Shown: in pieces, positions 1 to 40,660 of the stretch
How the letters are laid out: each line of letters begins with the position of its first letter
How positions within the stretch are numbered: the first letter of the stretch is position 1
NCBI RefSeq assembly: GCF_021134715.1
Contig: NC_060019.1
Span: 806,001 to 870,000, forward strand
Length of the DNA: 64,000 nt
Source of the DNA: Daphnia pulex
Taxonomy: Eukaryota > Arthropoda > Branchiopoda > Diplostraca > Daphniidae
Reading direction: 5' to 3'
Program-made: the position numbers and the translations under genes
Notes under the pieces: generated by a model
The model's database searches: none
Seen by the model: the letters and a program-made list of their open reading frames with translations, nothing else
What the model was told of the DNA's origin: nothing

Positions 1-860
1 CCCGTTTCTATACGAAAACAGAAATTTACGTTTGACAAAAATTAAATTGATATTCACAATTATTCGTTTTCCATGCAACTTACCGAGAAGATTGACTGGT
101 TCATTTGATCGTAAGTTGATTTGAATTTGATGACTTGTAGTGCCAAATGGATGAACCCCTACCGAAATGAAATAGCCAAAGACGAGTCCTTCTGCGAATA
201 CATCGCTCTTGACTGTTCCTCTTTTCTGAACTTCGTTATCATTAGAACTGACCTCGTCCAGGTATTTCAATATTTCCGGTGCGAAATAATCGTATGTTCC
301 TCTAACACCGCTCATCGAGAAAGAACCCCTTTCGTTGACACGTTTACTGAAACCAAAATCTGCCCACTTCATCACCACTTGTTGGGTTGTAGAATTCAAG
401 CTGATGAGCACGTTCTGTGGCTTGATGTCTCGATGGACTAATCTCTTTTGATGGATGTACTCGAGTCCTTCAGCTAACTGGAGAAGAACGTATAGTTCTG
501 GTGGCATTGGGCCGCGATATTTTTTCGGGTCATTTTCTTTGAGAAACAATTTTTCCAAAGAGGCATCACACAATTCAAGGATGATAATTCTATAAAATAT
601 TTATTTTCGAAAAGTTTTAAGAATGCTAATTCGACTGTTTAATTTTTAAAATACCTGAAGTCTTGGTCCTCCTCCATGTGAAATAATTTGATGACGTTGG
701 GATGATCCAACATTTGTAGGGCCTTGACTTCTCGTTCATTACTCGCGGCTTTTTCTAGAGGAATTCGTTTGACTGCCACTTTAGTTTCACACCAAGTACC
801 TTCGAAAACAATGGCAAAACCTCCCTCTCCTAAAATCTTTTTACGATCTAAGGTCAGCAT
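1..860 (-). CDS. IRE1/RNase L-like kinase gene, copy 1 (partial, runs off left edge)
   Basis: Exon 1 is 860-655 and begins with ATG (MLTLDRKKILG). Exon 2 begins at 589 after a TATAG acceptor. Visible kinase motifs are the glycine loop GEGGFAIVFEG, the ATP lysine in VAVKRI, HRDIKPQNVLI, DFGFSK and DYFAPE, so all catalytic residues are present. The stretch HPNVIKLFHMEEDQDF followed by ELCDAS resembles the region around the hinge in IRE1, which is why I place it in the IRE1/RNase L kinase group. At position 84 there is a strong donor-like GTAAGT. In copies 2 and 3 the matching position is coding, so this copy either gained an intron here or reads on into a diverged sequence that stays open to base 1. 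Any ankyrin part lies outside the window. It is head-to-tail with copies 2-4. Confidence 0.8.
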
Positions 861-1000
861 GCTAACAAATGAATTTATAACTTGCCATAACACTTAAATA
901 TGGGTTTACTTTCGCTCAACTCAAGGGTGTGGTACTTGATGCGAGAAGTATATAACAGTATCTACAACGCTTTTACATTAAATCTAGTGATAAAATTTCT
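861..1000 (-). promoter_or_regulatory. Conserved promoter block of kinase copy 1
   Basis: On the minus strand a TATATA-type box at about 948-955 lies roughly 90 bp upstream of the ATG. It is followed by CACACCC and a GCGAAAGT element. The same order and spacing recur upstream of copies 2 (box near 5380-5387), 3 (14813-14818) and 4 (19421-19427). The conservation is seen directly; that these are core promoters is inference. Confidence 0.5.
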
Positions 1001-2700
1001 TTTATCTTTTTTTTTATGATAAGTTGATAAGCACGTAGCAATGGGATACATAGGTTGTTTTGTTGCCCCCTTTATTATCTTTGACTATTTTGAAATCCAT
1101 TAACTGGGACCTTCATTCAGCCATTCCGTCATTCTTGATAATAAGACATAAAATTTGGTTTTATCTCAGCAAGTCCTCAACAGCTGATGCCATTTTTTTG
1201 CGGTCTTTGAAGGAATTCGTTTGAAATGAATTCCACCGCAACATTATAACAATAATGAATAGCTTTTCCCTAAAAAGAAACTCAAGTTAATTTGCTTCAC
1301 ATTTAACTGAAGAGTGTTGTCTTTAGAGCGAGAAATGTAACCCCCCAAAAAAGTAGGCTGCAATGAACTTTTTAAAAATTAACTTTGATAAGCATGATTA
1401 AAAATAAAAAATGTTTTCCTTTGTGGGTACAATTTTTATCTTAATCCATTTGAAAATAATTAACCCGGTATCTTTTCAGCCGTTACTTGATACTTAATAA
1501 CACGCGTCATTTTTGTAATTTTTTAAAATTAGCAACTCATCAACAGTTTCTGTATTTTTTTTTCTATGGCGACTATAGTCTATAGTTAATTTGCTCCCTC
1601 TTCAATGTTCAAAAGAAATAAAAAATTTTGTTGTTGTGTTTAGGAGCCCAATGATTTTAACCTTGTTAGCCAAATACTTTCAGAATTTCAGCGTTAGATC
1701 TCTTATATATTGGCCTATACCATTTGAATTCTGACATTTCAACCATCAGCTAGGATTCACTTTTCAACTGTTATATCTGTTATCGCTGCTGAAACAGTTG
1801 ACATAAAAATCTAGCGGCAATGAATTAGACAACAAGTGTGGTGATTTTATTCTCCAAAAATGCCTTGAGGTCCTGAACTCCCTCGACAGTCACCTTCGGT
1901 TTCTTGAGCATTTTGGGCGTTGACGTCCCGTCTTCTAAGTCACGTTATCTGGCGCAAAAGTCACGCGTGCGGTGTAGATAAAGTTCAGATTGGACCCCGT
2001 CATGGAATCGGATGGATGTGACTCAACTTTGCGGAGTCTTTGGACAGTTTCTTCCAGAAGGGACCTTTGCGTGAAATAACTATGTCATGATCAATTTACT
2101 TTTAGATGAAACTTTGATCATTTGATGAAACTTTGTCGTCACTAATTTAGGCTAAGGAACTGAAATACTTGAAAGGCTGGTAGGATTTCTTATCCAAGAA
2201 TTCTTAGAAAACATGAGGACAGATTTGTTTTGCAATATTTTGTTTTTTCTAGTCGTTTTCTGTGACCTCAGTCAGGGTTAGGCTTTATTTAATAATTTAT
2301 TTATAGAACGACTGCAGATCAGGCTTGGTTTTGTACTGACAACTTTGTCTGTTGGGGAAACAAATCAAATTTAATCAAAAGTAGTTTAACTTCCACACTT
2401 GAAACAAAGCGCAACTAGAACATTTTCTTACCAAGACGAACTTGCCGCCACACTAGCACTTGCTTGTCAATTCGATAGATGGCAGCCGTTGTCGGTTTCC
2501 TCAATCTCCTGAATTACAAATCAGTGTTATCGTGAGAAATCAATTTACGGTACCTATAATCGAGATTAATTCAAATTGTTGACTTTGTCTCCTAGGCAAA
2601 GGGGGTTAGAGCAAAACTTTTATTTTATTTTATTTATTTTCTTTTCTTTGTTTAGAATCATACAAATGGGAAACGTAATGCGAGATCGAAAAAAAAAGGG
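1001..2700. repeat. Intergenic array-unit repeat, first copy
   Basis: This stretch has no intact gene. Positions 1000-2050 are repeated with small changes at 5440-6330, 14880-15520 and 19490-20570. Read on the minus strand, 1820-1920 still encodes a short tail (VTVEGVQDLKAFLENKITT) that also occurs near 6260 and 20320 and resembles the C-terminus of the protein at 22007-22663. Positions 2210-2700 match 9610-10080. The block is the spacer part of the tandem duplication unit. Confidence 0.6.
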
Positions 2701-2713
2701 AAATTAAGCAAAA

Positions 2714-2923
2714 TTATTTATCGTCTGCGTTGGACAAGAGTTCCAGGTTTTTGTTGAGCTGGTCTGAATAGTTGGCTGATTCCGGGGTACAGGTCGACAC
2801 GGGACTCGACGTCAGCTCATTATCGACATTTGCCAGTTGTAGAATTTTGTACTGGCGAAACCAGCGGGCGCTGGTTCGATCAGCAGAGGCCATAACTTCT
2901 CCACAGGATAAACAGCAGAACAC
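2714..2923 (-). pseudogene. Fragment of array-associated helical-protein gene
   Basis: This short minus-strand reading frame ends in SNADDK. Its DNA matches the 3' end of the broken gene at 10.1-11.25 kb (near 10100-10240), and its upstream part matches 11960-12030. It therefore appears to be the same 3' end after an internal deletion of about 1.8 kb. No start, domain or function can be assigned. Confidence 0.4.
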
Positions 2924-3134
2924 CTTTCGATTACAGGTTTTATTAGCTTGACTGCTTGAATGAATACTGCTCTACTTATCTACACCACTATTCCTGCCAG
3001 AAAAATCGATGCAGATCGTATTAAAATTCATTTGAAATCATGTTGGAGCAAAAATGATTTTATTTGATTTTCAATGAAATATAGAATTATGAAAATTGGA
3101 TTGAACGCACGAAGAGACATAACCGTAACTAAAT

Positions 3135-3680
3135 TTAAGCGAAAATATTCAGCAGTTCCAGGTTTGTGTTGAGCGTCTGGATGGTTGGCCAAATAGGCGA
3201 CGCCGGCATCGAACGTTTGATGCTAAACGTTTCTTCTTTAATTTTCTTCAATCTTTTTTCGGCCTTTTCGAACATTTGCCGGGGCATATGCCTATTCAAG
3301 CGATTCTTCTTTAGGCTCATGGCGAAAAAACGAAATCCAAATACACCCAACTTTGATTTGCTGGTGTTGTCCCAATCGTTTCCGCTTAGATTTCTTTCCG
3401 CTTTTTCAATTTCCCCGCTGAAACTGTTTTTCCTCTTTGGCTCCACTTTGCTCCTTATCGTTTCTTTAAATCTCTCCTTAATCCTGTCATTGTCCTGAAA
3501 TTGTTGCTCCGTCACCAGCCGCTTTTTTAAATTCTATCCAGCGCGTCTGCGCAATTTATCCGTATATCTTCTTCAAGTATTCTATCGAATCCGCTACCTT
3601 AATCGGTACCTTCTTCTACTCTAATCAACTGGCGGCCATTCGTTATAGTATGTCGGTTAATCTGGATGTTGTTTAAACAT
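3135..3680 (-). pseudogene. Conserved post-ankyrin coding remnant of copy 2
   Basis: This directly follows the copy 2 stop codon on the minus strand. An open frame at 3515-3135 encodes a charged, helical sequence with many Lys and Glu (NDRIKERFKETIRSKVEPKR, then GVFGFRF). The same DNA occurs after copy 3 (12240-12785) and partly after copy 4 (17910-18045), but the frame breaks differ between copies. It looks like the remnant of a longer C-terminal region or a separate downstream gene. No known domain is recognised. Confidence 0.45.
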
Positions 3681-5294
3681 GAAGTAATTGCAAGATTTCA
3701 TCGCGATTTTTTTCTTCATAATTTCTCTGGAAATAGTCACGCGTTTCTTTAGTCACTTTGAATCCACTTTTAATTAACAATTTTATAACGTCAATTAAAT
3801 TTTTGTTTTTGTAATATTGGCACAGTATAGTGAGAGCATTATTTCTGTATATGTTTTTGCCATTGACATCGATCCCATTTTTAATCAAAAGTCGAATAAT
3901 GTCGATTAGATTTCCGATTCTATAAGATCTGCACAATAAAATGAGAACATTATTTTCGTATTTGTCTTTGCAATTGATATCGATCCCATTTTTAACAAAT
4001 AGATTGAGTATTGTCAAAAAGCTTTTGTTTTGATATTGTTCGCGATTTTTGCACCACAAAAGGAGAGCATTTTCGCCGTTGCTGTCCAGTGAATTGACGT
4101 TTGCTCCGTGTTGGATCAAGAGAATAAATATTTTTACCAAATTTTCACTTATCTTTTCGCTTTTTACTAAGTGTAAAAGCGGTGTCAATCCTTTTTCATC
4201 TTTGGCATTGACATCCAAACCTTCTTGAATCAGTTTTTCGATTTCTTCCACGATTGGGTTCCCCTTTGCAATTAAAGTGAACAACTGCTGTGAATTCTGA
4301 AAGGAAAAAAACTGTTTATTGCATGGTAAAAGTCAAGAAAACGTTTGCCTTATACCTTCAGGATAATTTCGGTGAGTCGATTAACGACATCAGACGAAGT
4401 AATTCGATTGTTTGGGTCTTTTTCTAACATTCTTGTGATTGTATTCTGAATGTTGGTCGTTTCTATACCGGAAAGTTTTTGTAATAAGCTTTCACTCGAC
4501 TTACTGGGAAGATTGGCTGGTTCATTTGTTCGTAAATTGTTTTGAATTTGATGACTTGTGGTGCCAAAGGGATGAACTCCTCTCGAAAGGAAATAGCCAA
4601 AGACGAGTCCTTCTGCGAATACATCGCTCTGGACTGTTCCTCTCTTCTTATCTTCATTATCAGTAGCGATCTGATCGTCGTCCAGTAATTTCAATATTTC
4701 CGGTGCGAAATAATCGTGTGTTCCCCTCACTCCGCTCATTGTGAATGTTCCCCTTTCGTTGACTTTTTTACTCAAACCGAAGTCAGCCCACTTCATCACC
4801 ACTCGTTGGGTTGTAGAATCCAAACGTATAAGTACATTATGTGGCTTGATGTCACGATGGACTAATCCCATTTGATGAATGTACTCGAGTCCTTTAGCCA
4901 ACTGAAGAAGAACTTCTATTTGTGGTGGCATCGGGCCACTGTATTTTTTGGGGTCTTTTTCTTTCAGAAATAGTTGGTCCAATGAGGCATCACACAATTC
5001 AAGTGCGAACATTCTATGAAAAATTGAATCTGGAAAAGTTTCAAGTATGCTAATTAGAAAACTGTTTGATTTTTTTTTTTAATACTTGAAGTCTAGGTCC
5101 TCCTCCACGTGAAATAATTTGATGACGTTGGGATGATTTAACATTTTTAGAGCCTTCTCTTCTTGTTCGTTGGTTGCGGCATCCCCTACAACAATTCGTT
5201 TGACGGCTACTTTCACTCCATCCCGTAAAGTACCTTCGAATACAGTGGCAAAACCTCCCACCCCTAAAACCTTTTTACGATCAAAGGTTAGCAT
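3673..5294 (-). CDS. IRE1/RNase L-like kinase with C-terminal ankyrin repeats, copy 2
   Basis: There are three coding exons: 5294-5086, 5013-4356 and 4296-3673. All junctions are GT-AG and the frame holds, giving about 496 aa. The kinase occupies roughly residues 1-285. It shows GVGGFATVFEG, the ATP lysine in VAVKRI, HRDIKPHNVLI, DFGLSK, DYFAPE and a terminal DPNNRITSSDVV, so it should be active. The hinge region (HPNVIKLF, then FALELCDASL) is IRE1-like. The third exon encodes about four ankyrin repeats: two canonical units (LIQHGANVNSLD) and two 37-aa units (NGIDVNGKN..NALTILC). The protein ends QLLHV. The KEN ribonuclease domain of IRE1 and RNase L is absent, and ankyrins stand in its place. 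RNase L has the opposite order. No signal peptide or membrane segment is visible, so a cytosolic protein is likely. A stress or immune sensing role is inference. Confidence 0.85.
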
Positions 5295-6474
5295 GCCAAC
5301 AAATGAATTAATTTGCCAGAAACACTTAATTAAAGGTCAACTTTCGCTCAACTCAAGGGTGTGGTATTTGATGCGAGAAATATATGACAGTATCTACAGC
5401 ACTTTCACATTAAATTTAGTGATAAAATTTCTTTTATCTGGCTTTTTTATGATAACTTGATAAGCACGTAGCAATGGCATACATAGGTTGTTTTGTAGCC
5501 CCCTTTATTACCTTTGTATATTTCGAAATCGATTAACTGGGTACCTTCATTCAGCCATTCCGTCATTCTTGATAATAAGACATAATTTAAATTTGGTTTT
5601 GTCTCAGCAAGTCATCAGCAGCTGATTCCATTTTTTGCGGTTTTTGAAGGAATTCGTTTGAAAAGAATTTCACCTCAACATTCTAACAAACGAAAAGCTT
5701 TTTTCCTTAAAATATACTCCAAATTAATTTGCTTCACATTTAACTGAAGAGTGTTGTCTTTAGAGCGAGAAATGTAACCCTCTCAAAAAGTAAAGTGCAC
5801 TTTTTTAAATAATAACTTTGATAAGAATGATTAAAAATAAAAAAAATTTTCCTTTGTGGGGGCAGTTTTTATCTTTATCCATTTGAAAATGATTAACCAG
5901 GTATCTTTGCAGCCGTTACTTGACACTTACTTATAACGCGCATCATTTTTGTAATTTTTTTTTTAAATTAGCAACTCAACAAGTATCTGTAAATTTTTTC
6001 TATGGCGACTTTAGCCCTATAGTTTATTTGCTCCCTCTTCAATGTTAAAGTAAGATACAACATTTTTGTGTTTAAGAGCCCAATGATTCTAACCATGTTG
6101 GCCAAATTCTTTTTAATTTCAGCGTTAGATATCTTGTTGTACCATTTGATTCCGACATTGGATACCGTTTTCAACTGTCAGATTTGTTATCGCTGCTGAA
6201 ACAGTTGACATAAAAATATAACGCTAATATATTAGACAACAAGTGTGGTGATTTTATTCTCCAAAAATGACCTGAGGTGCTGAACTCCCTCGACAATCAC
6301 CTTCGGTTTCTTGAGCATTTTGGTAGTACCACAAAACTTGAAATCATTTTCACAACTGTTTCATTTTCAATTAAAATCTTATGTCAAAATTTAAAAAATG
6401 CTGAGAGAAAATTGTTTGTCTAATTTACGTGGTAATATTTATTAAATGTTTCGAAACGTCTGATTTAGGAGAGA
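5295..6474. repeat. Array-unit repeat upstream of copy 2
   Basis: This is the copy of the 860-1920 spacer block. It carries the TATATA-containing promoter block near 5340-5390 (minus strand). A minus-strand open frame at 6174-5968 (KNLANMVRIIGLLNTKMLYL) is intact over 81 codons only in the fourth repeat, at 20274-20029. In the first repeat it is broken. It may be a decaying small gene or chance. Positions 6330-6470 hold nothing recognisable. Confidence 0.5.
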
Positions 6475-8130
6475 ATGTCGAGCGATCAAACGGGTTTTTC
6501 AAAAATGATCGTCTCTTTTGCGATCGTGACTCTGCTTAGCTTTTGCAGCCCGGCGTCCAGTTTCGCCTACCTTCCTCGCGTCTCCCGTACACATGACGCC
6601 ATCATCATCGATGGTATTCAAAATGATTTTCCTTTTTTTTTTCTAATTTTTAACATTGGCTGAATGTGATTTAAATTATTTGAATCCAGTTGACGGTAGA
6701 TACTCTTATCAAGATAAGACGCTGTACGGCCAAATTACCAATCCAGGATTTATTCCGGTGCCATCCTTCAATCCCTACCCTGTAAAGGCATCACCAGCAG
6801 GAGCAGTGTCAGTCCAGTGGGTGTGGTTCTATTCATACGAATATCCTAATATTCTGACTGTTGGAGATCTCTTTGTCCGTCAAGCAAACAACAGCGCCTG
6901 TGTGTGGTGCTGGACCAGCCACCATGACTGCTACACGGGCATTGGCAAGCAAAAGGATCATTGGCGGAACCTCAGCCAAAAAGAATGCTTGGCCTTTTAT
7001 GGTATGTTTATTTCACTATATAATTTAAATATGGTTTGTTATTGAGCTTCGCGAATGACAATATCTTTTAATTACTTACGAATTATTATAGGTAGCCTTG
7101 AAGAAAAGTGATGGTTCATTATTTTGCAGCGGAACTTTGATTTGTGACACCAGAGTTACTATTGGCGGCTCAGTGTGTGGAGAAGTATTAGGATTGTCAT
7201 ACTTATTATTTTAAAATTCGTTTAAGTAAAGCCTTTCTTCTCTTTTTTCACGTTCACTTGCAGATTGTATTTGTATGAGTTTTCTGGTGTGACCGTATTG
7301 GTTGGGATGTTTTTGACGGACAAAACCGACGTCCAAATGACGACGAGGAGGATCAGCATCATGTTTCAAATTCAACTCTGCCTCCTATCAGTTGCTACAA
7401 CAGGACGGAAATTTTTGAAATTCACCTCCATTCATTGATGTCGACTAGGCCAATGATATCGCCATCATTTTGTAATGGACGCGCCCGTGGTTCTTTTCAG
7501 GATTGTTGCACCTGCTTGTTTGCCGCCGGCCAGTACAGACCCCGACCAGTACGTCGTAACGTCGACCAAGATGCCATTCTTTTGGGATGGGGAGAGCCGG
7601 AGAGCCTAGTAACAAAAGATCGGAAACTAATTGTCGGTTATTTTTTAATGATTTAACATGAATCTTCTTTTTTCAACTCGTTTCCCCAATAGGCAAAAAT
7701 AGCATCCCCTTAACCTGGAACAAGCCAAGTTTTCGATTTCGTCCAACATTGAATTAAAAGGGAATCCACTTTTTTGGTAAATGTTTTACGGACACAAATA
7801 TCTGTATTACGAGTGGTGTCAAATTCCCATGCAAAGTAAGTAATTCTCTCTCAGCAATCAAACAATGTTGTTCGTGCCAAAGCAAAAAATGGGGTTCGAT
7901 TTTGTAGAAGGACTTTGGCGATCCAGCAGTCATCCTCCCAATCACCAGAGGCCTGGACCATATAGTCGGAATCAACAGCTACACCAAGGGTAAATATCTG
8001 ATTTTATTTGGTGAAAATGAAATAACCATTTTTTTATATACTGTTTTGTGACAGGTTGCATATCCAATAGCACCAATAGCATATTAAAAACCTGTGTGTC
8101 GGCATTCAGCCATTCAGGACATGGAACCAA
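6475..8130 (+). pseudogene. Secreted trypsin-like serine protease homologue, catalytic residues lost
   Basis: Exon 1 (6475-6613) encodes a clear signal peptide (MIVSFAIVTLLSFCSPASSF). Exon 2 (6690-7001) encodes a Cys/Trp-rich segment I do not recognise. Later blocks match S1 proteases in order: KKSDGSLFCSGTLI (7095-7150), VTVLVG (7290), NDIAII (7450), IVAPACLPPASTDPDQY (7500-7560), and GDPAV..VGINSY (7915-7985). The position of the catalytic His (normally TAAHC) reads TIGGSVC, the Ser motif (GDSGGP) reads GDPAV, and only the Asp is kept. In-frame stops occur near 7082 and 7474, and the phase between exons 2 and 3 does not match. Either it is a decayed gene, or it descends from a non-catalytic protease homologue. 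The decay makes an active protease very unlikely. Confidence 0.6.
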
Positions 8131-8159
8131 TACCTGACCATGCCTTAAAATTTTTACTC

Positions 8160-8880
8160 CAAGACGACCAACGTTAAACGACATCAGTATGAAATTCAAA
8201 CTCGTTTTTTTTTCAGTTTCTCTATTCTTTCAGAAACTTATACCCCTTATACTTTAATTCGATTTTGGCTAATCTTAATTTCTCGTATGGCCAAAGCCCT
8301 GTCCTCGATGTACATGTCTGTAAATAATAATAATGAAAGCATTGTAAGCGGAAACTGTTTGGTTTTTTACTTTAATTATGGATGTCTTTTCTGTCGATGT
8401 TGTCGATTTTGAAATCCGTCACGTGAGATGTGCAAAATCAACAATTGGCTCAAGACAAATAGAAGAATGGTGGCTAAATAAAACTTGGTGAGATGATCAG
8501 CGGGCTGTCGGAGCGCATGTGAAATTGAATTTGGAGCGGTTTGAATTTAAGGGGGAATCGATTTTTAATGATTTCAATCGATATGTTAAGTCAAGTATCA
8601 CTAATCGTAGTGTCGTCTGCTGTACTGTCGTCTTACGAATTTTGAAAAGACGAGACGAACAACGAAGGTCTACACTTTACAAAGGAAGAAAGGAACAATC
8701 ATTATTATTTGAAAATGTGCATGTGGCTGCACGAAAAATTGCACAACAAAGAAAATTTAAAAAATGTTGTCGCGTTAACTCATCACGTGTCTATTATTAG
8801 AATCGCTTAATGGCCAAAGCGTGCTGTTGTATAGCAGGTAAATAAAACCATATTCTGAGTTTAAAATAGAAGAGATCAAA
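8160..8880. repeat. Segmental duplication, copy A
   Basis: About 720 bp that recurs in the same orientation at 17167-17885. Both copies begin around a shared cgaccaacgttaaacgacat and end near a shared gcaaataaaaccata. Identity is high but with many small indels. Open frames inside it differ between the copies, so no gene is supported. Confidence 0.7.
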
Positions 8881-10080
8881 ACAATGAAGAGATAGAAGAG
8901 AAAATAGAACCTGATCCAAGTTTTTGAAATGTTAAAGACTGCTTTTCATTAGTCAATAGTCACGTAAGCCACTTGTTGATGCATATGAGCACAGTTTGTT
9001 CACCATCACTTCATAACCTTTTCTTTTTTGCAGATTTGAAGCCAGAGCCAGCCATCATATCCACAGGAATTTCAAGTTGTGCTTGTGCTGTTATTGACCT
9101 GTCACCAGCAACAAGCCCTCATCGCTTGGGTATGATTTTCGTAACTTTTATTACCTGTGACCTGCTAAACATTTCTATTGATGCACTACTTCACGAATGC
9201 AATGTGTCAAATGGAAACCTTTAATTCTTCTCTTTATTAGAAATTATGGTTTACACGCTGTCTCACTTTTCAATTTGTTCGTAATACTTGTTGTTTCTGT
9301 AAAATATGTATAACTCATTTATTATTTTTTTTGCAGATAAACATCATCCCGTTTTGGATTGGATAGACTTCTGTTGTTCGAGCTCTTTCTCAAAATCTTC
9401 TCTGTCCTCGTGTACTCCCATGTGAGGTGTGGGTGTATTCACGAGGACACCCTTTTTCCCTCCTGGTGGATTCAACTTTCGAGCGAATGGATCGAGCACT
9501 TGTGGATGGATGCCTGGCCGTATCTCCCAGGCATAAAGGTAGGAACAAATGTCTCTATTCTTCCTTTGTGACTTTTAGATGGCGTTGATCGTAAATCGTA
9601 ACATAGTACGGAGTATGATTATTCCTGAGCTTTGATACTGGAACTGTGTTTTCTCTCGCCGTTTTCTGTTGTCTCAGTCAGAGTTAGGGTTAATTCATTA
9701 ACTCATTTATCGAACAATTTCAGATCAGGTTCGGTTTTTTACTCACAACCTTGTCTGTGGAGTAAACAATTAAATCTAAAAATAGTTAAACTTTCCACAC
9801 TTGAAGCAAAGTGCAACTTGAACGTTTTTTATTTCTATTCTAACCAAGCAGGATTTGCCGCCACACTTGCACTTGCTCGTCAATGCGATAGATGGCGGTC
9901 GTTGTCGGTTTTCTCAATCACCTGAATTACGAATAGTCTTATCGTGAGAAATCAATTTGCCTATAATCGGGATTTATTCAAATTGATTTTTGACTTTGTC
10001 CCATAGGCACGGTTAGAGTAAAACTTTATTGTATTTTCTTTGTTTACAATCGTAGTAATGGGAAACGTCATGTGAGTTAG
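8881..10080 (+). other. Exon-like segments, no recognised gene; spacer repeat
   Basis: Two segments look exonic. One is 9033-9128, with a TTTTTTGCAG acceptor and GGTATG donor, and reads TGISSCACAVIDLSPATSP. The other starts at 9337 after another TTTTTTGCAG acceptor. They could be the remains of the protease-like gene's neighbour, but frames do not join cleanly and no family is recognised. Positions 9610-10080 repeat 2210-2700. Confidence 0.3.
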
Positions 10081-10099
10081 AAAAATGCGAAAAAAAGAA

Positions 10100-11249
10100 T
10101 GGAATGTTCTCGTCTGCGTTGGACAAAATGGACAACAGTTCCAGGTTTTTGTTGAGCGTCTCGATGGTTCGTCGATTCTGGAGGACAGGTCGATATTAAA
10201 CTGGAAAGAAGCTCACTATTTCCTAGTGCTAGAATTTTGTTTTTCTATTCCTCGTGTTGCCCCCGCTTTCTCCTCGTCGTACATGTCCTGAATGCCCTTT
10301 AGTAGCTTCTTCACATGATGCCATCAACTTGATTTGAGCTCCCTCACCCTCGCTGAGAGGAATCGAAAGCATCGAGTGCATGAGATTGATGCTCTTCATG
10401 ATGTGCTTGTCTGAGACTCGGACGTAGAGTTTGGCGGCCGAGTGATGCGTCTCGTAGCAGGATTCCAACGATTTTTCTAGGGACTTTTCCAATTCATCTA
10501 TTAAAACGGAATTATCATACGGCATCTCCTCAGCTTCTTGGGCATCAGTTGAAAAATCCTTCAGTCTTGAAAATGTTACCTCCATATAGTGATTTCTGAT
10601 CGTATTGAAAAAGCGATGGATGCTCGACCATTTGTCAAGCAACTGACCGAGGTTATTTAAACTTTCTTTCAGCGTTCGGAGCGTTTCATTTTGCTCTAAA
10701 GTTTTATCCATGTCGACTCGCATGGCGTCCAAATGTTGAATGCTATCGTCCGATATTTGGTCGATTTCTTGCTGCATTTGCTCTTCTTTTTTTATGCTCC
10801 GGTCATGTTCGAATGAATTTTCATGAAATCCATAACTTGCTGTCCAATAGCGAATGTCTTTCGATGTTTTGAGTTCCTGCTGTAATTCGTCTACTCTTTT
10901 TCTTTGGCTTCCATCTTCGTCACTTCTCCTTTGACAATCTCCTTCTCCATTTGACTAATGCTTAGCGATTAGGCTTCAAGTTCTCCATATTGTTGTGAGC
11001 TTTGGCGAAGGCTTCGTACGATTCTTTGGCGATTTGCCACAAAGTTGTGCGGAAACTGTCCGGGTCTTTGATTAAATTGAAGCGCTCTTTGTCATCGGTG
11101 TGCTGGACGAATGCGAAATCACTCGTCAATCGAGATGCGCACATCAAGAGTTGACTCCCGATGGCCACTCCCACGGGGGCCGGAGCAAGAAGCTCAGTCC
11201 AGTCGGGTAATTTAGCTATACTTGTCAACAACTCGGGCGTTGGCTTCAA
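10100..11249 (-). pseudogene. Decayed gene for a helical, coiled-coil protein
   Basis: On the minus strand one protein can be followed from 11249 to about 10225, but it changes frame at least three times, near 10960, 10870 and 10320. The first part reads LTSIAKLPDWTELLAPAP and continues to YEAFAKAHNNMENLKPNR. The second is a long amphipathic stretch (MQQEIDQISDDS, then LLDKWSSIHRFFNTIRNHYM). The third is HVKKLLKGIQDMYDEEKAG. No signal peptide is seen. The pattern of long helices suggests a helical bundle, but I do not recognise the family. The 3' end recurs at 2714-2923. The multiple frame breaks argue for a pseudogene; introns could explain one of them at most. Confidence 0.5.
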
Positions 11250-11960
11250 CTGTCAATAAAAAAACAAACAAAAAAACTGGGAATTAGAAGACATTTAATT
11301 TAATTAAATTTGAACTTATACCAATTAATTGATTTAATTATTTATAACATTTCTTATTAGTAAATAATTCACTCAATAATTCAAGCTTGCAATTTATTTT
11401 AAATATTTGCATTTAGAGTTTAGACTCTCTTCATTTAGCGAGGCTGTGTCTACGTCTGGTTAGAATACGGTACCGTACAATTCTCGGTGGTGGCGAAAGT
11501 GCCCAACGTTATTTTAGTAGGAAAATGCTAACGTTGGTGGATCAAGGAAAAGTACCGCACAAACAATTCACAGAACGAATCAAGATTAAGATTAGCACAT
11601 TTGTCGTTCGAACAATGAAATTTTAAATAGTTCACTTTACTTGTTTTTTTCAATTAAGATCAAATATAGCGTTTTACTGCTGCTACAGTGCTATTCTCCT
11701 TACAATGCGGATGGAATTTATTATAAAGTATGTTGTTGTTCCATGGAAGAATCAAAATGATAGTGCCCCTTATTAGTCCACCCCTTTTATTTCACTGTTA
11801 TTTAAGGACTCCAAATGAGAATTTCTGCATCAAAAGTCCAAACTGTTTCAAGAAAAATAAATAAATCACAGCCTTAACAAAATTCAAAGTGCAAGTTGCT
11901 GTATCTTTTGATTTGAGTGATTTGCCTCTAGACAATTGTTTAATACGTTTTTGAAGTAAC
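11250..11960. other. AT-rich stretch, no gene seen
   Basis: This is AT-rich sequence between the decayed helical gene and the repeated block that begins near 11960. Short open frames here show no recognisable motifs. Confidence 0.5.
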
Positions 11961-12239
11961 TTACCGCTGGTTCGATCAGCAGAGTTCATATCTCTCGTCA
12001 GGATAAACAGCAGAAAACCTTTGATTACAGGCTGTTGAATACTTGACTGCTTGAATACTACTGTACTTGTCTTCACCACTATTCCTGCCAACAAAATTGA
12101 TGCAGATCATATTAAAATTTATTTGAAATCATGTTGGAGCAAGAATAATTTTATTTCATTTTCAATGAAGTATAGAATTATAAAAATTGGATTGAACGCA
12201 CGAAGAGACATAACCGCAACTAAAATACTAAATCTAAGC

Positions 12240-12785
12240 CAAAATCTTCAATAGTTCCAGGTTTGTGTTGCGTCGGGAAAGGGTTGGCCAAAAAGGCGAC
12301 GCCGGACTTGAATGTTTGATGCCAAACGTTTCCAAAAACGAAATCCAAATACACCCAATTTGATTTGCTGGTGTTGTCCCAGTCTTTTTTTTTTCGCTTA
12401 GATTTCCTTCCGCTTTTTCAATTTCCCGCTGAAACTGTTTTTCCTCTCTATTTTTGGCTCTACTTTACTCCTTATAGTTTCTTCAATTCTCTCCTTAATC
12501 CTGTCGCACGATTCTTACTTTCCTTGCAAGCTTCAATTACTTGTCGAATCAACTGACCCAATTGTCAAAAGCATCGCAAACTTCTTTTGAAATTGTTGCT
12601 CCGTCGTCACCCAATTGTTTAAATTCTGTCCAGTCGTCTACGCAATAAATCCGTACTATCTTCTTTGTCTTATCTGTTTTCCAACTCCATCCAAGTTCCA
12701 TCCAATCTGCTACGTACTCGGTACCTTCTTCTACTCTAATCAACTGGCGGCCATTCGTTATAGTTTGCTGGTTAATCTGGATGTT
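12240..12785 (-). pseudogene. Conserved post-ankyrin coding remnant of copy 3
   Basis: It starts right after the copy 3 stop codon, in a shifted frame. It reads NNIQINQQTITNGRQLIRVE, continues through DWMELGWSW and DDWTEFKQLGDDGATI, and stops after FDNWVS. After a frame change it continues QLIRQVIEACKESKN, then EKQFQREIEKAEG, then NLGVFGFRFW. The same block follows copy 2. It looks like a former C-terminal extension or a second gene; the frame breaks suggest it is no longer translated as one piece. Confidence 0.45.
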
Positions 12786-12787
12786 GT

Positions 12788-14728
12788 TTAAACATGAAGT
12801 AATTGCAAGACTTGAGTGCGATGTTTTCCTTTATAATTTCTCTGGAAGCAGGTGCGGGTTTCTTCAGTCACTTTGAATCCACTTTCAATAAAAATGTTTA
12901 TAACGTCAATTAAATTTTCGTTTTTGTAAGAGTAGCACAATAAAGTGAGAGCATTACGTCCGTATTCTTGTTTGCAATTGATATCGATCCCATTTTCAAT
13001 CAAGAGTCGAGTAATGTCAATTAAATTTTCGTTTTTATAATTTTCGCACAATATGGTGAGAGCAGTACGTCCGTATTTGGTTTTGCAATTGATGTCGATC
13101 CCATTTTGAATGAAAAGTCGAATAATGTCGATTAAATTTGCGTTTTGATACGATGTGCACAATAAGGTGAGAGCATTAATACTGCAATCGGTTTTGCAAT
13201 TGATGTCGATCCCAATTTCAATCAAAAGTCGAATAATGTCAATTAAATTTTCTTTTCCATAATTTTCGCACACTAAAATGAGAGCATTACGTCCATATTT
13301 GTCTTTGCAGTTGACATCGATCCCCTTTTGAATGAATAGTCGAATAATGTCGATTAAATTTTCGTTTTCATAATGTTCGCACAATAAGGTGAGAGCATTA
13401 TCTCCGTCTTTGTCTTTGCAATTGATATCAATCCCCTTTTCAACAAAGAGATTGATGATTGGCAAAAAACTTTTGTTTTCATGTTGTTTGCGATTTTTGC
13501 ACCAGAACAGGAGAGCATTTTTACCGTTGCTGTCAAGTGAATTGACGTTGGCTCCGTGTTGGATCAAGAGACTAACTATTTCAACCAAATTTTCACTTAT
13601 CTTTCCGTTTTTTACTAAGCGCAATAGCGGTGTCAATCCATTTGGGTCTTTGACGTTGAGGTCCACACCTTCTTGAATCAGTTTTCCGATTTCTTCCACG
13701 CTTGAGTTCCCCTTTGCAATTAAAGTGAACAACTGCTGTGAATTCTGAAAGGAAAAAAACTTGTTAATGCATAATAATAGTTAAGAATAAAAACGTTTTC
13801 GTGAAGTTTTTGGCCTTACCTTCAGGATAATTTCGGTGAGTTGATTAACGACAACGGACGAAGTAATTCGAATGCTTGGTTCTTTTTCTAACATTGCAGT
13901 GATTATATTATTACAAATTTTTCCCGTTTCTACTTCGGTTCCCGTTTCCGGAAGATTGGCTGGCTCATTTGTTCTTAAGTTGGTTTGAATTTGATGACTT
14001 GTAGTGCCAAAAGGATGAACCTCTCCCGAAATAAAGTAGCCAAATAAAAGACCTTCTTCAAATACATCGCTCTCGGCTGTTCCTTTTTTCTTATCTTCGT
14101 TTCCAGTAGAACTGGCCTCGTCCAGTAATTTTAATATTTCCGGTGCGAAATAATCGTATGTTCCCTTCACTCCGCTCATTGTGAAAGAACCTTTTTCGTT
14201 GACAAGTTTACTAAAACCAAAATCGGTCCATTTCATTACCACTCGTCGGGTTGTAGAATTCAAGCTGATGAGCACGTTCTGTGGCTTGATGTCGCGATGG
14301 ACTAATCCCCTTTGATGAATATACTCGAGTCCTTTAGCCAACTGAAGTAGGACTTCTGTTTCTGGTGACATTGGGCCACTGTATTTTTTCGGGTCATTTT
14401 CTTTGAGAACTAGTCTATCTAATGAGGCATCACACAATTCCAGGACAAACATTCTATGATAAAATTTGTTTTCGAAAAATTTTAAGATTGCTAATTAGAA
14501 AACTGTTTAATTTTTAAAATACTTAAAGTCTTGGTCCTCCTGCTCGTGAAATAATTTGATGACGTTGGTATGATGCAACATTTTCAGGGCCATCTCTTCT
14601 TGTTCCGTTGTTGCAGCATCCCCTACAAGAATTCGTTTGACGGCCACTTTAGTTTCACCCCAAACACCTTCATAAACAGTTGCGAAACCTCCCTTTCCTA
14701 AAACCTTTTTACGATCAATGGTCAACAT
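12788..14728 (-). CDS. IRE1/RNase L-like kinase with C-terminal ankyrin repeats, copy 3
   Basis: Three exons, 14728-14523, 14453-13820 and 13744-12788, keep frame over both GT-AG introns and give about 598 aa. Kinase motifs are complete: GKGGFATVYEG, VAVKRI, HRDIKPQNVLI, DFGFSK, DYFAPE, EPSIRITSS. The hinge (FVLELCDASLDRL) is IRE1-like. Exon 3 encodes two canonical ankyrin units and then five 37-aa units of the type GIDINCK..G.NALTLLC..Y.NENLIDIIRL, closing with SGFKVTEET and QLLHV. There is no KEN domain. Compared with copy 2 it has three more 37-aa units. The promoter block is at 14740-14830. Role is unknown; kinase activity is expected from the residues present. Confidence 0.87.
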
Positions 14729-14729
14729 G

Positions 14730-15600
14730 GTAACAAATAATTTGACTGGCCAAAAACACTTAAATGTGTCTACTTTCGCTCAATTCAAGGGTGTGGTATT
14801 TGAAGCGAGAAATATATAACAGTACTATACAGCACTTGTAAATTCTATTTACTGATAAAAGTAAATACTTTCATCTTGTTTTTCGTTGATAACTTGATAA
14901 GCACATAGTCGAGGGATCCATAAATATTAGGCTGTTTTATAGCCACCTTTATTATCTTTGACTATTTTGAAATCCATTTACTGGGTTCTTTCAGTCAGTA
15001 ATTCCGTCATTGATAAGACATAACTTAAATTTTGTTTTGTCTCAGCAAGTCATCAGCAGCTGATTCTCTATGAATTTGTTTGACGGCTACTTGAATTCCA
15101 CCCTAAACGCCTTCATAAACAATACCGTATGCTAACCTAAAATCTGCACGATCAATGGTCAACATTCTAATAACAAATGAATTAACTGTCTTTTTTCTAA
15201 AAAGAAAGTTAATTTGCTTACATTTAACTGACAGAGCGAGAAATGTAACCACCACCACCCCCCCCCCCAAAAAAAAAAAGTGAAATGCACTATTTTTAAA
15301 TAATAACTTTAATAAACATAATCATCATGACATAGACTGGAAATTATAAAAAAATGTTTTGCTTTGTATAGTGATCGTTTTTATCTTTGCAGCCGTTATA
15401 CTGGACACTAACGTGCATAATTTTGTAATTTTTTTGTTATATAGCAACTCATCAACAGTTTCTGTAATATTTGTCCATATAGCGACTATAGTCTATAGTT
15501 ACTTTTCTCCCTCGGTCGATGTGAAAAGTACAACATGTTTGTGTTGGACAAATTTTTGTAAATATTTAAAGTCATGTGTAATTCTTATCATTTTTTGACA
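14730..15600. repeat. Array-unit repeat upstream of copy 3
   Basis: Diverged copy of the spacer at 860-1600. The promoter-like block with TATATA at 14813-14818 is kept. Near 15065-15170 there is an extra fragment of kinase exon 1 (minus strand, remnants of the VAVKQ and start regions), so this spacer has been rearranged. It contains a C/A homopolymer run at 15258-15280. Confidence 0.5.
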
Positions 15601-17166
15601 AATTTTTAGATGCCCTCACTTTTCATAGCATTTTGGAATACCATCAATACCAACAATCCTGATCGGAGAAGACTGAAACAGCACATCAACAGTTGTTACA
15701 GTCACGTAGCTTGTTTCTTTGGTCACGTATAGCCACCGGCCCACCATGCAGTTCAGCCACGAGACTGAGCATCCCATCAAGTTAATGAATACTTAACATG
15801 TTAAAATTCGAATGTTTAATTCATGTTTCTTTTTCTTTAAAATAGAAGTAAAATAGAAGAAAGGACATTGAGCTGGCCACCTAAGACATGCAACTTTGTA
15901 CATCAACGAGACACATTCAACGGAACACACCGACGTCAACGCAGATCTTTAAATGTGAGTGCCTGAATTCTCTGTTTGTTTCTGTGAAATGCATTCTTTT
16001 CGTTATTTTCGTACTGCACATGATAACAAGTAGCTAATATTTAATTTTGATTGGGCGGTTAGTAGTTTGACATATCAAAAGGAGAACTTTTATTTTTACT
16101 GTATTCTTTTAAGGGAAGAATTTTTCGTTTAATTTCTGGTCAATTTCAATTCTGTGTCCGGATGCACTTAGTTGCATTTTTATTTTAAAATCTCTTTAGT
16201 CTTTACCCTGATAATATTCAATTCTTTCAACGACGTCCGATGACGACATTCTGTCCTCCGGGTGGTGGGCCAATATTGTCAATTGAAGTTTATACTAGTT
16301 ATACGCTTTTTATTTGTTCAATTGGACATGACAGCAACAGTTAGGCGAAGAGGTCACACAAAATTTATCAAAGAACCGCTTTCTGTACGTAAGAATGCGA
16401 ATAATCCCATTATAGTCTCCAATTTCTAGTTTGCGAGAAGATGATGTGGAAATCATCAGCTGTCCAAAGACAGTGATTCATGATGTGGGGGCCGTAGTCA
16501 GGCTTTTCCAAATGGTGTCGTCCGTGATGCAAAGTGTATTGAGACGACCGTCGATTGCACCTGTCATTTCACGAATAATAGTTACCTAAAGTTGCCATCT
16601 TATTTCCTAATTATGCGTGAACACAGACGGTCGAGAGCTCTCGAGACTTGACTCACCAACTGACGGCGACTTATTGGTGAAACTTTGTTTTCCATTGGAA
16701 ACTAGCCATGCCCTCTCGTCTAAACAGGGCTCGGCGCCGCTCCCGAATGAACCAAGCGGAAAGTATCGTTGATTTTCCCATCAGCCCTTCCTATAAAGAG
16801 TTGACTGAGAGGTGAGGGCGATCGGCTCCGTGTTCTGCAGGCCTATGCCGTATCTCTGTCGAATTATTTTAGAAATGAAGACGGCCAACAGCAAATGGGC
16901 TGCTTGTTTTTATTTGATTTTTTAAAACAGCAATAAGTTATGAATTTCTTACATTGTAGGAAATTGTGTGCTTTTGAAAATTGTTATACTTGACTCGTTA
17001 GCTGTGAGTTCATTTTATATTCTGAGCTTTCCTTTACACGCCTTTACATCGGCGAGACTTTCGGCCTGCGTTTGTAACCCTTCCCTTCCCTGCAGAGTTG
17101 ACCGTGCCGTTCCGCTGAACGCTCCCCTAGAAAAACAAAAGAAATCTGTTTTATTCCAACCAAAGG
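15601..17166. other. Spacer with a diverged repeat, no gene
   Basis: Positions 15620-16050 match 23790-24180 at low identity (shared gacatgcaacttt and aaatgtgagtgcctg). Positions 16200-17166 show no coding sequence that I can support. Confidence 0.4.
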
Positions 17167-17885
17167 GCGACGACCAACGTTAAACGACATGAGTATGAAA
17201 TTCAAACTCGTTTTTTCAGTTTCTCTATTCTTTCAGAAATTTATACTTTAATTCGATTTCGGCTAGTCTTAATTTTTCGTATGGCCAAAGATGTACGCTC
17301 GATGTACACGTCTGTAAATAATAATAATGAAAGCATTGTAATCGTTGTTTACTATTTGCACAATAATTGTACGGAAACTGTTTGGTTTTTTAATTATGGA
17401 TGTCTTACTATACTGTCGACGTTGTCGATTTTGAAATCCGTCACGTGAGATGTGCAAATCAACAATTGGCTCAAGACAAATAGAAGATGATGGTGGCTAA
17501 ATAAAACTTGGTGAGATGATCAGCGGGCTGTCAGAGCGCGTGTGAAAAGTTTTGGTTTTGGAGCAATTTGAAACTTTGAATTTAAGGGGGGGATCGATTT
17601 TTTATGTTTCAATCGATAAGTATTGTTAATTGTAGTGTCGTCTGCTGTCGTCTTAATTTACGAATTTTGAAAAAGAGAGAAGACGAAGGTTACACCATAC
17701 ACAAAGAAATAGGAACAATCACTTTTATTTGAAAATGCACATGTGGCTGCATGACATTTGCACAACAAATAAAATTTCAAAATGTGGTCGTCTTGTTAAC
17801 TCATCACATGTCACGTGTCTATTTTTAGAATCGCTTAATGGCCAAGCTCCATGCTGTTTAGCAGGCAAATAAAACCATAGTCATC
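17167..17885. repeat. Segmental duplication, copy B
   Basis: Partner of 8160-8880, same orientation, with indels. This copy lies just beyond the 3' end of kinase copy 4. Confidence 0.7.
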
Positions 17886-18047
17886 TACAAGTAACCATAA
17901 CCATCTAATTGTCTATTACGCAATAAATCCGTACAATCTTCTTTGTCTTCTGTTTTCAAGTAAGTTCCATCCAATCCGCTACGTAATCGTTATCTTTTTC
18001 TACTCTGCGGTCATTCCTTATAGTTTGCTGGTTAATCTGGATGTTGT

Positions 18048-19310
18048 TTAAACATGAAGTAATTGCAAGACTTCGGTGCGATTTGTTTCTTTATAATTTT
18101 TCTGGAAGTAGTCGTGCGTTTTTTCAGTCACTTTGAATCCACTTTTGATTAATAATGCTATAACGTCAATTACATTTTTGTTTTCATAATTTTCGCACAA
18201 TAAAGTGAGAGCATTATTTCCGTTGTTGGTTGTGCAATTGACATCGATCCTTTTTTCAATGAAAAGTCGAGTGATGTCAATTAAATTTTCTTGTTGATAA
18301 TTCCTGCACAAGTAAATGAGAGCATTATATCCGGGTTTGTTTTTGCAATTGATATCGATCCCATTTTCGATTAAAAATGTTATAACGTCAATTAAATTTT
18401 CGTTTTTGTAAAATTGGCACAATGTAGTGAGAGCATTATCTCCGTTGTTGGTTTTGAAATTGATATCGATCCCATTTTCAATGAAAAGTTGAATTATTTC
18501 GATCGCATTATCGTTTTGATAATAGTGGCACAAGTGAGTGATAGCATTTTCTCCGAATTTGTTTTTGCAATTGATGTCGATCCCATTTTCGATTAAAAAT
18601 GTTATAACGTCAATTAAATTTTCGTTTTTGTAAAATTGGCACAATGTAGTGACAGCATTATCTCCGTATCTGTTTTTGCAATTGATATCGATCCCATTTT
18701 CGATGAAAAGTCGAATAATGTCAATTAAATTTTCGTTTTTATAATATTTGCACAATAAGGTGAGAGCATTTTCTCCGTTATTGGTTTTGAAATTGATATC
18801 GATGCCATTTGCAATGAAAAGTCGAGCGATGTCAATCAAATTTTCTTTTTTATAAAATGCGCATAATAAGTCGAGAGCATTATATCCGTATATGTCTTTG
18901 CAATTGACATCGATCCCATTTTTAACGAAGAGATTGAGGATTGCCAAAAAGCTTTTGTTTTGATATTGTCTACGATTTTTGCACCACAACAGGAGAGCAT
19001 TTTCGCCGTTGCTGTCAAGTGAATTGACGTTGGCTCCGTGTTGGATCAAAAGACTAAATATTTTTACCAAATTATCACTTATCTTTTCGCTTTTTGCTAA
19101 GTGTAAAAGCGGTGTCAATCCTTTTTCATCTTTGGCATTGATATCACCTTGTATCAGTTTTCTGATTTCTTCCATGATTGGGTTCCCTTTCGCTAGTAAC
19201 GTAAAAATTTACTGTGAATTCTAAAAGGAACAAAAAAAATGGTTAGACAATAGATAGGTGGTAGGGTTAGAAAGTGGCAAAACCTCTCACCCCTAAAACC
19301 TTATTACGAT
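18048..19310 (-). pseudogene. Kinase-deleted, ankyrin-only array copy 4
   Basis: The ankyrin exon is open from ATG at 19175 to 18048 (375 aa) and encodes about nine repeats, seven of the 37-aa type. Upstream, the sequence matching the start of the ankyrin exon in copies 2 and 3 carries a TAA at the fourth codon. A short relic of kinase exon 1 (LDRNKVLGVRGFAT) survives at 19315-19270, and all the kinase between is gone. The first canonical ankyrin also lost about five residues (IQGDINAKDEKG). It could still be translated from 19175 as an ankyrin-only protein, because the long frame has no stops. I list it as a pseudogene because its promoter is separated from the frame by the broken kinase start. 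Confidence 0.7.
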
Positions 19311-20640
19311 CTAACAATAATGATAATCTAACTTATAACGAGCTAACAAATTAACTTACAAAAACACTTAAATGTGTCTACTTTCGCTCAATTCAAGGGT
19401 GTGGTATTTGAAGCGAGAAATATATAACAGTACTATACAGCACTTGTAAATTCTATTTACTGATAAAAGTAAATACTTTCATCTCGTTTTTCGATGATAA
19501 CTTGATAAGCACATAGTCGTGGGATCCATAAATATTAGGCTGTTTTGTAGCCACCTTTATTATCTTTGACTATTTTGAAATCCATTTACTGGGTACCTTC
19601 ATTTAGCCATTCCGTCATTCTTGATAAGACACAATTTAAATTTGGTTTGGTCTCAGCAAGTTATCAGCAGCTGACGCCATTTTTTGCGGTCTTTGAAGGA
19701 ATTCGTTTGAAATGAATTCCACCTCAACATTCTAACAAACGAATAGCTTTTCCCTAAAAAGAAACTAGTTAGTTTGCTTCACATTTTAACTGAAGATGGT
19801 TGGCTTTAGAGCGAGAAATGTAACCCCCCAAAAAAGTACAATGCACATTTTTAAAAATTAACTTTAATAAGCATGATTAAAAATAAAAAATGTTTTCCTT
19901 TGTGGGGACAGTTTTTATCTTTATCCATTTGAAAATGATTAACCCGGTATCTTTGCAGCCGTTACTTGACACTTACGTATAACGCGCATCATTTTTGTAA
20001 TTTTTTTTTTTAAATTAGCAACTCACTATCAGTATCTGTAAATTTTTTCTATGGCGACTTTAGCCCTATAGTTTATTTGCTCCCTCTTCAATGTTAAAGT
20101 AAGATACAACATTTTTGTGTTTAAGAGCCCAATGATTCTAACCATGTTGGCCAAATTCTTTTTAATTTCAGCGTTAGATCTCTTGTTGTACCATTTGATT
20201 CCGACATTGGAACAATTAGCTAGGATTCCGTTTTCAACTGTTTTATCTGTTATCGCTGCTGAAACAGTTGACATAAAAATATAGCGGCAATGAATTAGAC
20301 AACAAGTGTGGTGATTTTATTCTCCAAAAATGACCTGAGGTCCTGAACTCCCTCGACAGTCACCTTCGGTTTTTTTAGCATTGAGCATTGAGTTGACGTC
20401 CTGTCTTCTGCAGTCAAGTTATTCGGCGCATAATTGGTCACGCGTGCGGTGTATAGAAAAAGTCACTTTCAGATTGGACCCCTTCAAGGAATCGAATGGA
20501 GGTGACTCAATATGGCGGGGTATTCTAACAGTTTCTTTACTCTTCGAATCCAGAATAAGGGACCTTAGCGTGCTGCAAATCTTCTCTACTCATCAAATCG
20601 ACTGGTCCGACCTCCTCTCAAAGCCGATGTAGGCGATGTA
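19311..20640. repeat. Array-unit repeat upstream of copy 4
   Basis: Fourth copy of the spacer block. It holds the TATATA promoter block near 19380-19430 and the only unbroken version of the small minus-strand frame 20274-20029 (81 codons, starts MSTVSAAITDKTVENG). It also has the tail VTVEGVQDLRSFLENK near 20320. The small frame could be a gene, but there is no family match and the other copies are broken. Confidence 0.5.
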
Positions 20641-40555: not shown

Positions 40556-40567
40556 CTTTGAAGAGTT

Positions 40568-40660
40568 GGTGTAGTAGAGTCGGTGTAGTAGAGTCGGTGA
40601 GGTAGAGTCGGTGTAGTAGAATCGGTGTAGTTGAGTCGGTGTAGTAGAATCGGTGTGGTC
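40568..40660. repeat. 14-bp tandem repeats in the retrotransposon 5' UTR
   Basis: About 6-7 copies of a 14-bp unit, TCGGTGTAGTAGAG on the plus strand, with a few substitutions. They lie immediately upstream of the polyprotein start. A short GAT/AAT microsatellite follows at 40750-40777. Confidence 0.85.

Follow-up and report, generated by a model that had tools for sequence, protein, structure and literature searches.

A tandem array of IRE1-like kinase genes with predicted C-terminal ankyrin repeats in Daphnia pulex

IRE1, in which a kinase is followed by a KEN nuclease, and RNase L, in which ankyrin (ANK) repeats precede a pseudokinase and KEN, are the described systems closest to the genes considered here, and IRE1 is usually viewed as one kinase tied to one nuclease. 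These genes form a tandem array in a 64,000-nucleotide stretch of the Daphnia pulex genome (C3:806001-870000, hereafter the window), of which positions 1-19310 were examined by reading frames and Pfam. In them a kinase resembling that of IRE1 appears to be spliced directly to ANK repeats, and no KEN domain was found in the 10 window open reading frames (ORFs) scanned for PF06479 at E up to 0.1.

The order of kinase and repeats has a precedent in RIPK4 and RIPK5/ANKK1, which have an N-terminal kinase and C-terminal ANK repeats (PMC9573974). Expansions have been described for the nuclease: Swt1-type HEPN has grown to 46 copies in Daphnia, and enlarged sets of KEN exist in Oikopleura and monocots, these lineage-specific expansions being likened to immunity- or defence-related genes, and the accessible part of the same account makes no mention of kinase-ANK proteins in Daphnia (PMC3710099). 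Such expansions multiply a nuclease, whereas the family described here multiplies a kinase without one. PF18731 (Swt1-HEPN) gave no match in this genome, nor in control genomes, and for the latter reason the blank is uninformative on any Swt1-HEPN link. No account of a kinase-ANK family was found in the openly licensed literature, although one could exist in other publications or in automated annotation.

Kinase and ankyrin exons of the array

An earlier note on this DNA had described four head-to-tail copies, three with full kinase motifs, two of which continue into ANK repeats in the same spliced frame. VAVK, HRD, DFG and APE are indeed retained in copies 1-3. Spliced models were obtained with a purpose-written splice-aware protein-to-DNA aligner, the query being copy 3, spliced by hand; because the aligner admits GT-AG introns only, the splice letters are not evidence, but the place and phase of an intron are. 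Copies 2 and 3 both yield open two-domain models, of 496 and 598 amino acids (aa) respectively, and the aligner places the introns at the very coordinates that had been proposed, 4356|4296 in copy 2 (59 nucleotides (nt), phase 0) and 13820|13744 in copy 3 (75 nt, phase 0), in models drawn from DNA only.

Three lines of evidence argue that the kinase and ANK exons form one gene, and that the join recurs across a family. First, the kinase-ANK intron is present in 15 modelled genes (counting L7_A and L7_B, which carry a stop) and is in phase 0 in 13 of them, while the distance from kinase to ANK is 54-111 nt in 14 of the 15 models and 194 nt in L47. Second, among 35 related kinase C-lobes in the genome, 20 have a same-strand ANK match within 1 kb downstream and none has one upstream, in keeping with the kinase-then-ankyrin order that had been claimed. 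Third, copies 2 and 3 have ANK ORFs devoid of methionine, which therefore cannot begin at an ATG of their own; the ANK parts of other family members do have methionines.

Altogether, three kinases and three ANK ORFs were found on the minus strand of positions 1-19310, with E-values by exon of 1.1e-6 to 2.7e-29 for Pkinase and 7.1e-15 to 2.3e-35 for Ank_2; the match of copy 3 exon 1 alone falls under the Pfam cut-off. The features of the array, in window coordinates, are these:

84-589 (-): copy 1 exon 2, kinase C-lobe (Pkinase 1.7e-23); the remainder lies beyond the window edge, to ~C3:804.6 kb
655-860 (-): copy 1 exon 1, kinase N-lobe (Pkinase 4.4e-10)
3673-4296 (-): copy 2 exon 3, ANK repeats, 207 aa without methionine, including the stop codon (Ank_2 7.1e-15)
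4356-5013 (-): copy 2 exon 2, kinase C-lobe with ELC hinge, HRDIKPH, DFG, TFTMSGVRGT loop and APE (Pkinase 2.7e-29)
5086-5294 (-): copy 2 exon 1, ATG and kinase N-lobe with G-loop and VAVKR (spliced alignment; Pkinase 4.8e-8)
12788-13744 (-): copy 3 exon 3, ANK repeats, 318 aa without methionine, including the stop codon (Ank_2 6.8e-32)
13820-14453 (-): copy 3 exon 2, kinase C-lobe with HRDIKPQ, DFG, SFTMSGVKGT and APE (Pkinase 6.2e-28)
14523-14728 (-): copy 3 exon 1, ATG and kinase N-lobe (spliced alignment; Pkinase 1.1e-6)
14760-14860, approximate extent (-): conserved stretch upstream of the copy 3 ATG, TATA-like and then GAAAGT, also present before copies 1, 2 and 4 (nine-copy alignment)
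858-1060, 5292-5494, 14726-14928 and 19340-19520 (-), with five other copies: pre-ATG stretches compared (alignment)
15073-15165 (-): broken kinase start with an internal stop
18048-19208 (-): copy 4, open 386-aa ANK ORF without a kinase (Ank_2 2.3e-35; sequence)
19270-19314 (-): copy 4, relic of kinase exon 1 (LDRNKVLGVRGFATF), with nothing of the kinase after the G-loop (sequence)

Not all copies are complete. The kinase of copy 1 is intact; its ANK part lies to the left of the window, at ~C3:804.6-805.2 kb, in pieces in different frames, and the 681-nt gap between the two contains a repeated kinase end. In copy 4 a TAA (19211-19209) stands as fourth codon in the ANK exon, right behind the conserved splice acceptor, and the DNA at 19359-19674 matches 14751-15063, which lies ahead of copy 3, at 94% identity. 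Between units, the longer matches, which take in non-coding parts, show 78-94% DNA identity, so the units are tandem duplicates. Further kinase copies at ~C3:791-796 kb extend the array leftward past the window. The tandem copies of the earlier description stand, with four amendments: copy 1 once had an ANK part as well, copy 4 has lost its kinase, the array reaches beyond the window, and there is an additional broken kinase start at 15165-15073.

The ATG of each model sits at the kinase start, behind a stretch that is TATA-like in seven of the nine aligned copies and contains GAAAGT in all nine, and that is perhaps the core promoter and leader; gene starts are predicted from the DNA, and upstream exons are possible.

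Genome-wide scans, over 133,188,837 bases in 13 contigs, bear out the proposed lineage-specific expansion and make it larger than four copies, with 35 kinase C-lobe places listed. Five models other than copies 2 and 3 are free of stops (L43, L44, L45_A, L45_B and L46_A; 512-618 aa). With a related kinase from contig C11 as query, 149 of 432 candidates were scored and 152 kinase exon places matched at E ≤ 1e-10, which is not a count of IRE1-like genes because the weaker ones are ordinary kinases.

Relationship of the kinase to IRE1 and RNase L

Structure databases, gene structure and phylogeny support the placement of the kinase in the IRE1 group, as had been suggested. When the copy 3 kinase was compared with all PDB chains, the first 16 of the best 60 of 139 matches were IRE1 (101-75 bits; next 71), although yeast IRE1 was barely ahead of the remaining kinases in this single-sequence ranking. 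A profile of seven family sequences again returned IRE1 in the first 16 places, at 190-160 bits against 129 for the next (best 60 of 332 matches). No RNase L chain was among the best 60 in either comparison.

In a comparison confined to these groups, one kinase column, immediately ahead of the ELC hinge, carries a phase-2 intron in 18 of the 19 family models that cover it (the exception is L47), in all nine C11 models that span it, in the IRE1 gene of the same genome (L005) and in a KEN gene on contig C4 (L006). The activation loop gives a further likeness. The pattern [S/T]F[S/T].SGV.GT, which was written after the sequences had been seen, occurs in its strict form in 11 of 21 family kinases, all 11 being among the 15 whose HRD and DFG are intact and none among the six degenerate ones (L7_C, L46_B, L47, L50_B, L51 and L52_B); a looser pattern adds L7_D and L45_A. 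The loop of IRE1 reads SFSRRSGV.GT, and the motif is present in two of three IRE1 rows (the yeast pieces do not include the stretch), in three C11 rows (a, e and f) and in none of 11 other kinases. In IRE1 these loop residues are the autophosphorylation sites.

Three kinase trees were built, from all of which PERK, PKR, GCN2, RIPK and RNase L were left out. The third, which is the one we quote, has 40 rows, with five more kinases added, C4, C11_h, out5 and out6 left out, and out7 close to out4. In this tree the family and three C11 rows form one branch (100/98), and the family, IRE1 (from the same genome, 4pl3, and yeast in two pieces) and a C11 dual-kinase group (C11_b) hold together against nine other kinases, likewise at 100/98; the tree thus agrees with the suggested grouping as far as IRE1 is concerned, RNase L not being in it. 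The family with IRE1 alone has 90/53. In the first tree (39 rows, six other kinases) the family, four C11 rows, IRE1 and C4 group at 90/89 with the C11_b group outside, at a weak fork (72/20); in the second (36 rows, without C4, out5 and C11_h) the family and IRE1 have 68/65, or 95/91 with the C11_b group, and rival joins have p values of 0.42 and 0.07 in the approximately unbiased (AU) test.

Several results weigh against the account that we favour below. In the third tree the AU test does not reject the family with C11_b (p 0.25), IRE1 with the other kinases (p 0.25), and the family with the other kinases while IRE1 and C11_b stand apart (p 0.38). None of the four C11 dual-kinase rows has the loop motif, nor do C11_h and C4, and the catalytic motifs are degenerate in six of the 21 modelled kinases, HRD and DFG being intact in the other 15. 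Only the larger group that includes C11_b is firm, and the tree leaves the branching order within the IRE1 group open.

The absence of KEN from the locus, also claimed before, agrees with the genome-wide result for PF06479: four exon matches in two genes, both elsewhere, namely the IRE1 gene (C1) and a gene on C4 in which a pseudokinase is combined with KEN (five candidates scored). In the family models the kinase end passes straight to ANK. A cryptic KEN behind the ANK array was considered and rejected, since ~35 residues of capping repeat, without a Pfam match, are all that remain there. The C4 gene (L006:4988-6555, minus strand) is a second KEN gene in its own right; its pseudokinase has HGN for HRD and no DFG, its nearest PDB relative is IRE1, and it is RNase L-like in parts, with no ANK seen.

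The family has IRE1 as its nearest solved kinase and shares with it an SF(S/T)..SGV.GT activation loop and, with the IRE1 gene of the same genome, a phase-2 intron, but differs in having ANK repeats after the kinase, many copies, no detected KEN and, in gene models that derive from DNA, no luminal or transmembrane part. With RNase L it has in common a parts list, ANK repeats combined with an IRE1-group kinase fold. It differs from RNase L in that the repeats are C-terminal, no KEN was found, and the kinase of copies 1-3 has intact K, HRD and DFG; RNase L is not an especially near relative of either the family kinase or the family repeats.

Ankyrin variation, proposed role and alternatives

The ANK exon of copy 3 is predicted by AlphaFold from the single sequence as nine helix pairs, with modest confidence (mean predicted local distance difference test score 70.6). 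The nearest PDB relatives of the ANK part are ankyrin-1/2 and designed ANK proteins, RNase L being 39th among the best 60 rows. With the kinase nearest to IRE1, an origin from RNase L through repeat shuffling is not supported. The earlier note had supposed that the repeats moved to, or arose at, the C-terminus; the move from RNase L is unsupported, and an independent acquisition of ANK at the C-terminal end fits better. The NCBIfam matches fell below their cut-offs save one, in which the ANK exon reached 58.6 bits with a short PA4642-type model (cut-off 50); we put this down to chance similarity of repeat-like sequence.

The repeats vary more than the kinase. In 21 pairs of the seven stop-free genes the NG86 ratio of nonsynonymous to synonymous substitution (dN/dS) is 0.24-0.39 for the kinase and 0.31-0.64 for ANK, with dN greater in ANK in all 21 pairs and the ratio greater in 20; weighing against this comparison, the pairs are not independent and the repeats of different genes are possibly not matched one to one. 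Repeat number also changes, from 3 to 12 anchors in eight arrays. In the 35 repeats that are 37 residues long, the only length used, variability is highest at positions 12, 20, 10, 21, 9, 17, 23 and 8, and five of these eight are positions randomised in designed ANK proteins. At seven such contact positions the 320 close pairs have a dN/dS of 1.18 and all 521 pairs one of 0.71, as against 0.40 elsewhere, and it is 0.86 at the exposed positions of the second helix and loop. Two further points tell against a special role of these sites: exposed ANK positions vary in most ANK proteins, and 38 of 500 random position sets equal the pN/pS of the contact positions, although none of the 500 equals their pN. 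Because of the former count positive selection at the contact positions is not significant, and it is not shown; the variation fits binding arms under relaxed or weak positive selection.

On balance we favour the view that the products are cytosolic, nuclease-free, IRE1-like kinases that act in the manner of receptors, with ANK binding targets and phosphorylation as output. The ANK array would bind a protein target, and binding would gather two or more kinases, which would phosphorylate each other on the IRE1-type activation loop, as IRE1 does. Since a nuclease is not present, the signal would leave when a partner or substrate is phosphorylated, and pseudokinase paralogues may be among these. 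Least certain is the step in which targets would differ from member to member, in the way of immune or conflict families; copy-number turnover and the variable repeat positions suggest it. A function in stress or non-self recognition is a guess from expansion, turnover and variable arms. More speculatively, the IRE1 kinase, once freed of its nuclease, may have become a general signalling unit of an intracellular recognition system, with target-choosing ANK, with pseudokinase partners like paired NLRs, and with exchangeable C-terminal arms, which might be the short ANK arrays of this locus, long ANK arrays with paired kinases, or an alpha-kinase; we regard both the system and the exchange of arms as doubtful.

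In this family a kinase usually viewed as tied to one nuclease has been split from it, multiplied and, by the gene models, joined to binding repeats, and on C11 it also precedes an alpha-kinase (four places, one read-through fusion). The family offers a natural experiment on the working of an IRE1 kinase when no RNA is cleaved, and it is a candidate for the recognition of stress or pathogens in crustaceans.

A rather unlikely alternative, which nonetheless deserves attention, is that the kinase is mainly a scaffold, or ANK a substrate-docking arm, in ordinary signalling that serves neither recognition nor immunity. Docking of partners is a common task of ANK repeats, and the six degenerate kinases among the 21 would suit a scaffold; the retention of HRD and DFG in the remainder does not, and the copy number, tandem turnover and change in repeat number would be unusual for housekeeping kinases.

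That the array consists mostly of decaying duplicates, its intact copies having no selected function, seems improbable. Copies 1 and 4 and the 15.1-kb fragment are broken, and L7_A and L7_B carry stops. Nevertheless, birth-and-death families usually hold broken beside intact copies, seven genes are stop-free with the kinase dN/dS given above, and catalytic and loop motifs are retained together.

Still less probable is that kinase and ANK exons are separate adjacent genes or transcripts and their fusion a model on paper. In favour of separation, the unspliced reading of copies 2 and 3 ends shortly past the kinase exon and would give a kinase-only product, and the joins are known here from genomic sequence. 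Moreover, 15 of the 35 C-lobes have no ANK match within 1 kb downstream at the search depth used, a count that tells against a universal join, and kinase-only members may therefore be common. The near-constant place, phase and length of the junction, and the confinement of ANK to the downstream side, speak for single genes, as does the lack of methionine in the ANK reading frame of copies 2 and 3, although a non-ATG start is possible. Alternative isoforms are possible.

We give scarcely any credence to the idea that these are RIPK4/ANKK1-type kinases, which they resemble in an identical domain order and in that alone: the kinase belongs to another group by PDB ranking (it is this ranking, not the tree, that rules membership out), RIPK being absent from the best 60 rows and IRE1 filling the first 16 with the single sequence and the profile alike, the IRE1 loop motif and intron position are retained, and the RIPK1-5 clades, in the accessible part of their description, have no invertebrate sequences except amphioxus (PMC9573974).

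Kinase pairs elsewhere and other features of the window

Related kinases occur beside other kinases on C11 and C3. An alpha-kinase lies just downstream of an IRE1-like kinase match at four of four places on C11 (1430393, 1437453, 1452384 and 1459456), these being four of the 10 alpha-kinase matches in the genome, and in L010:6285-7223 (-) an IRE1-like kinase end and an alpha-kinase (PF02816 7.1e-48) share one open frame. Kinase-kinase-ANK-like genes are found on C11 at L009:3538-8652 (-), L012:2494-7199 (+) and L011:604-4092 (+), with ANK ORFs of 621-768 aa; the first kinase has HGNL for HRDL in L009 and L012 (L011 is cut off) and the second has HKDL. On C3, at L046:3472-6238 (-), L050:9-2401 (+) and L052:381-3119 (+), an intact IRE1-like kinase is followed by an HCD-type pseudokinase (NFG or SLG) with ANK, as one gene or two.

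Between the kinase copies are helical, charged ORFs (10229-11252, 3135-3533 and 12234-12464, minus strand, and L008:4173-4595, minus strand), some of which share an EIEKAERN-like motif; no Pfam family above cut-off was found in 10229-10954, 10962-11252, 3135-3533 or L008:4173-4595. Farther along the window, the ORF at 36755-40720 (-), 1321 aa long and situated in a GC-rich stretch, carries a reverse transcriptase domain (RVT_1 1.4e-21) and resembles a non-LTR retroelement. Long ORFs, some of them glutamine-rich, occupy the partly GC-rich stretch at 50700-62639 (-); Pfam gave no match for 61566-62639, and within the stretch there is a kinase start with what we take to be a WNK-like glycine loop.

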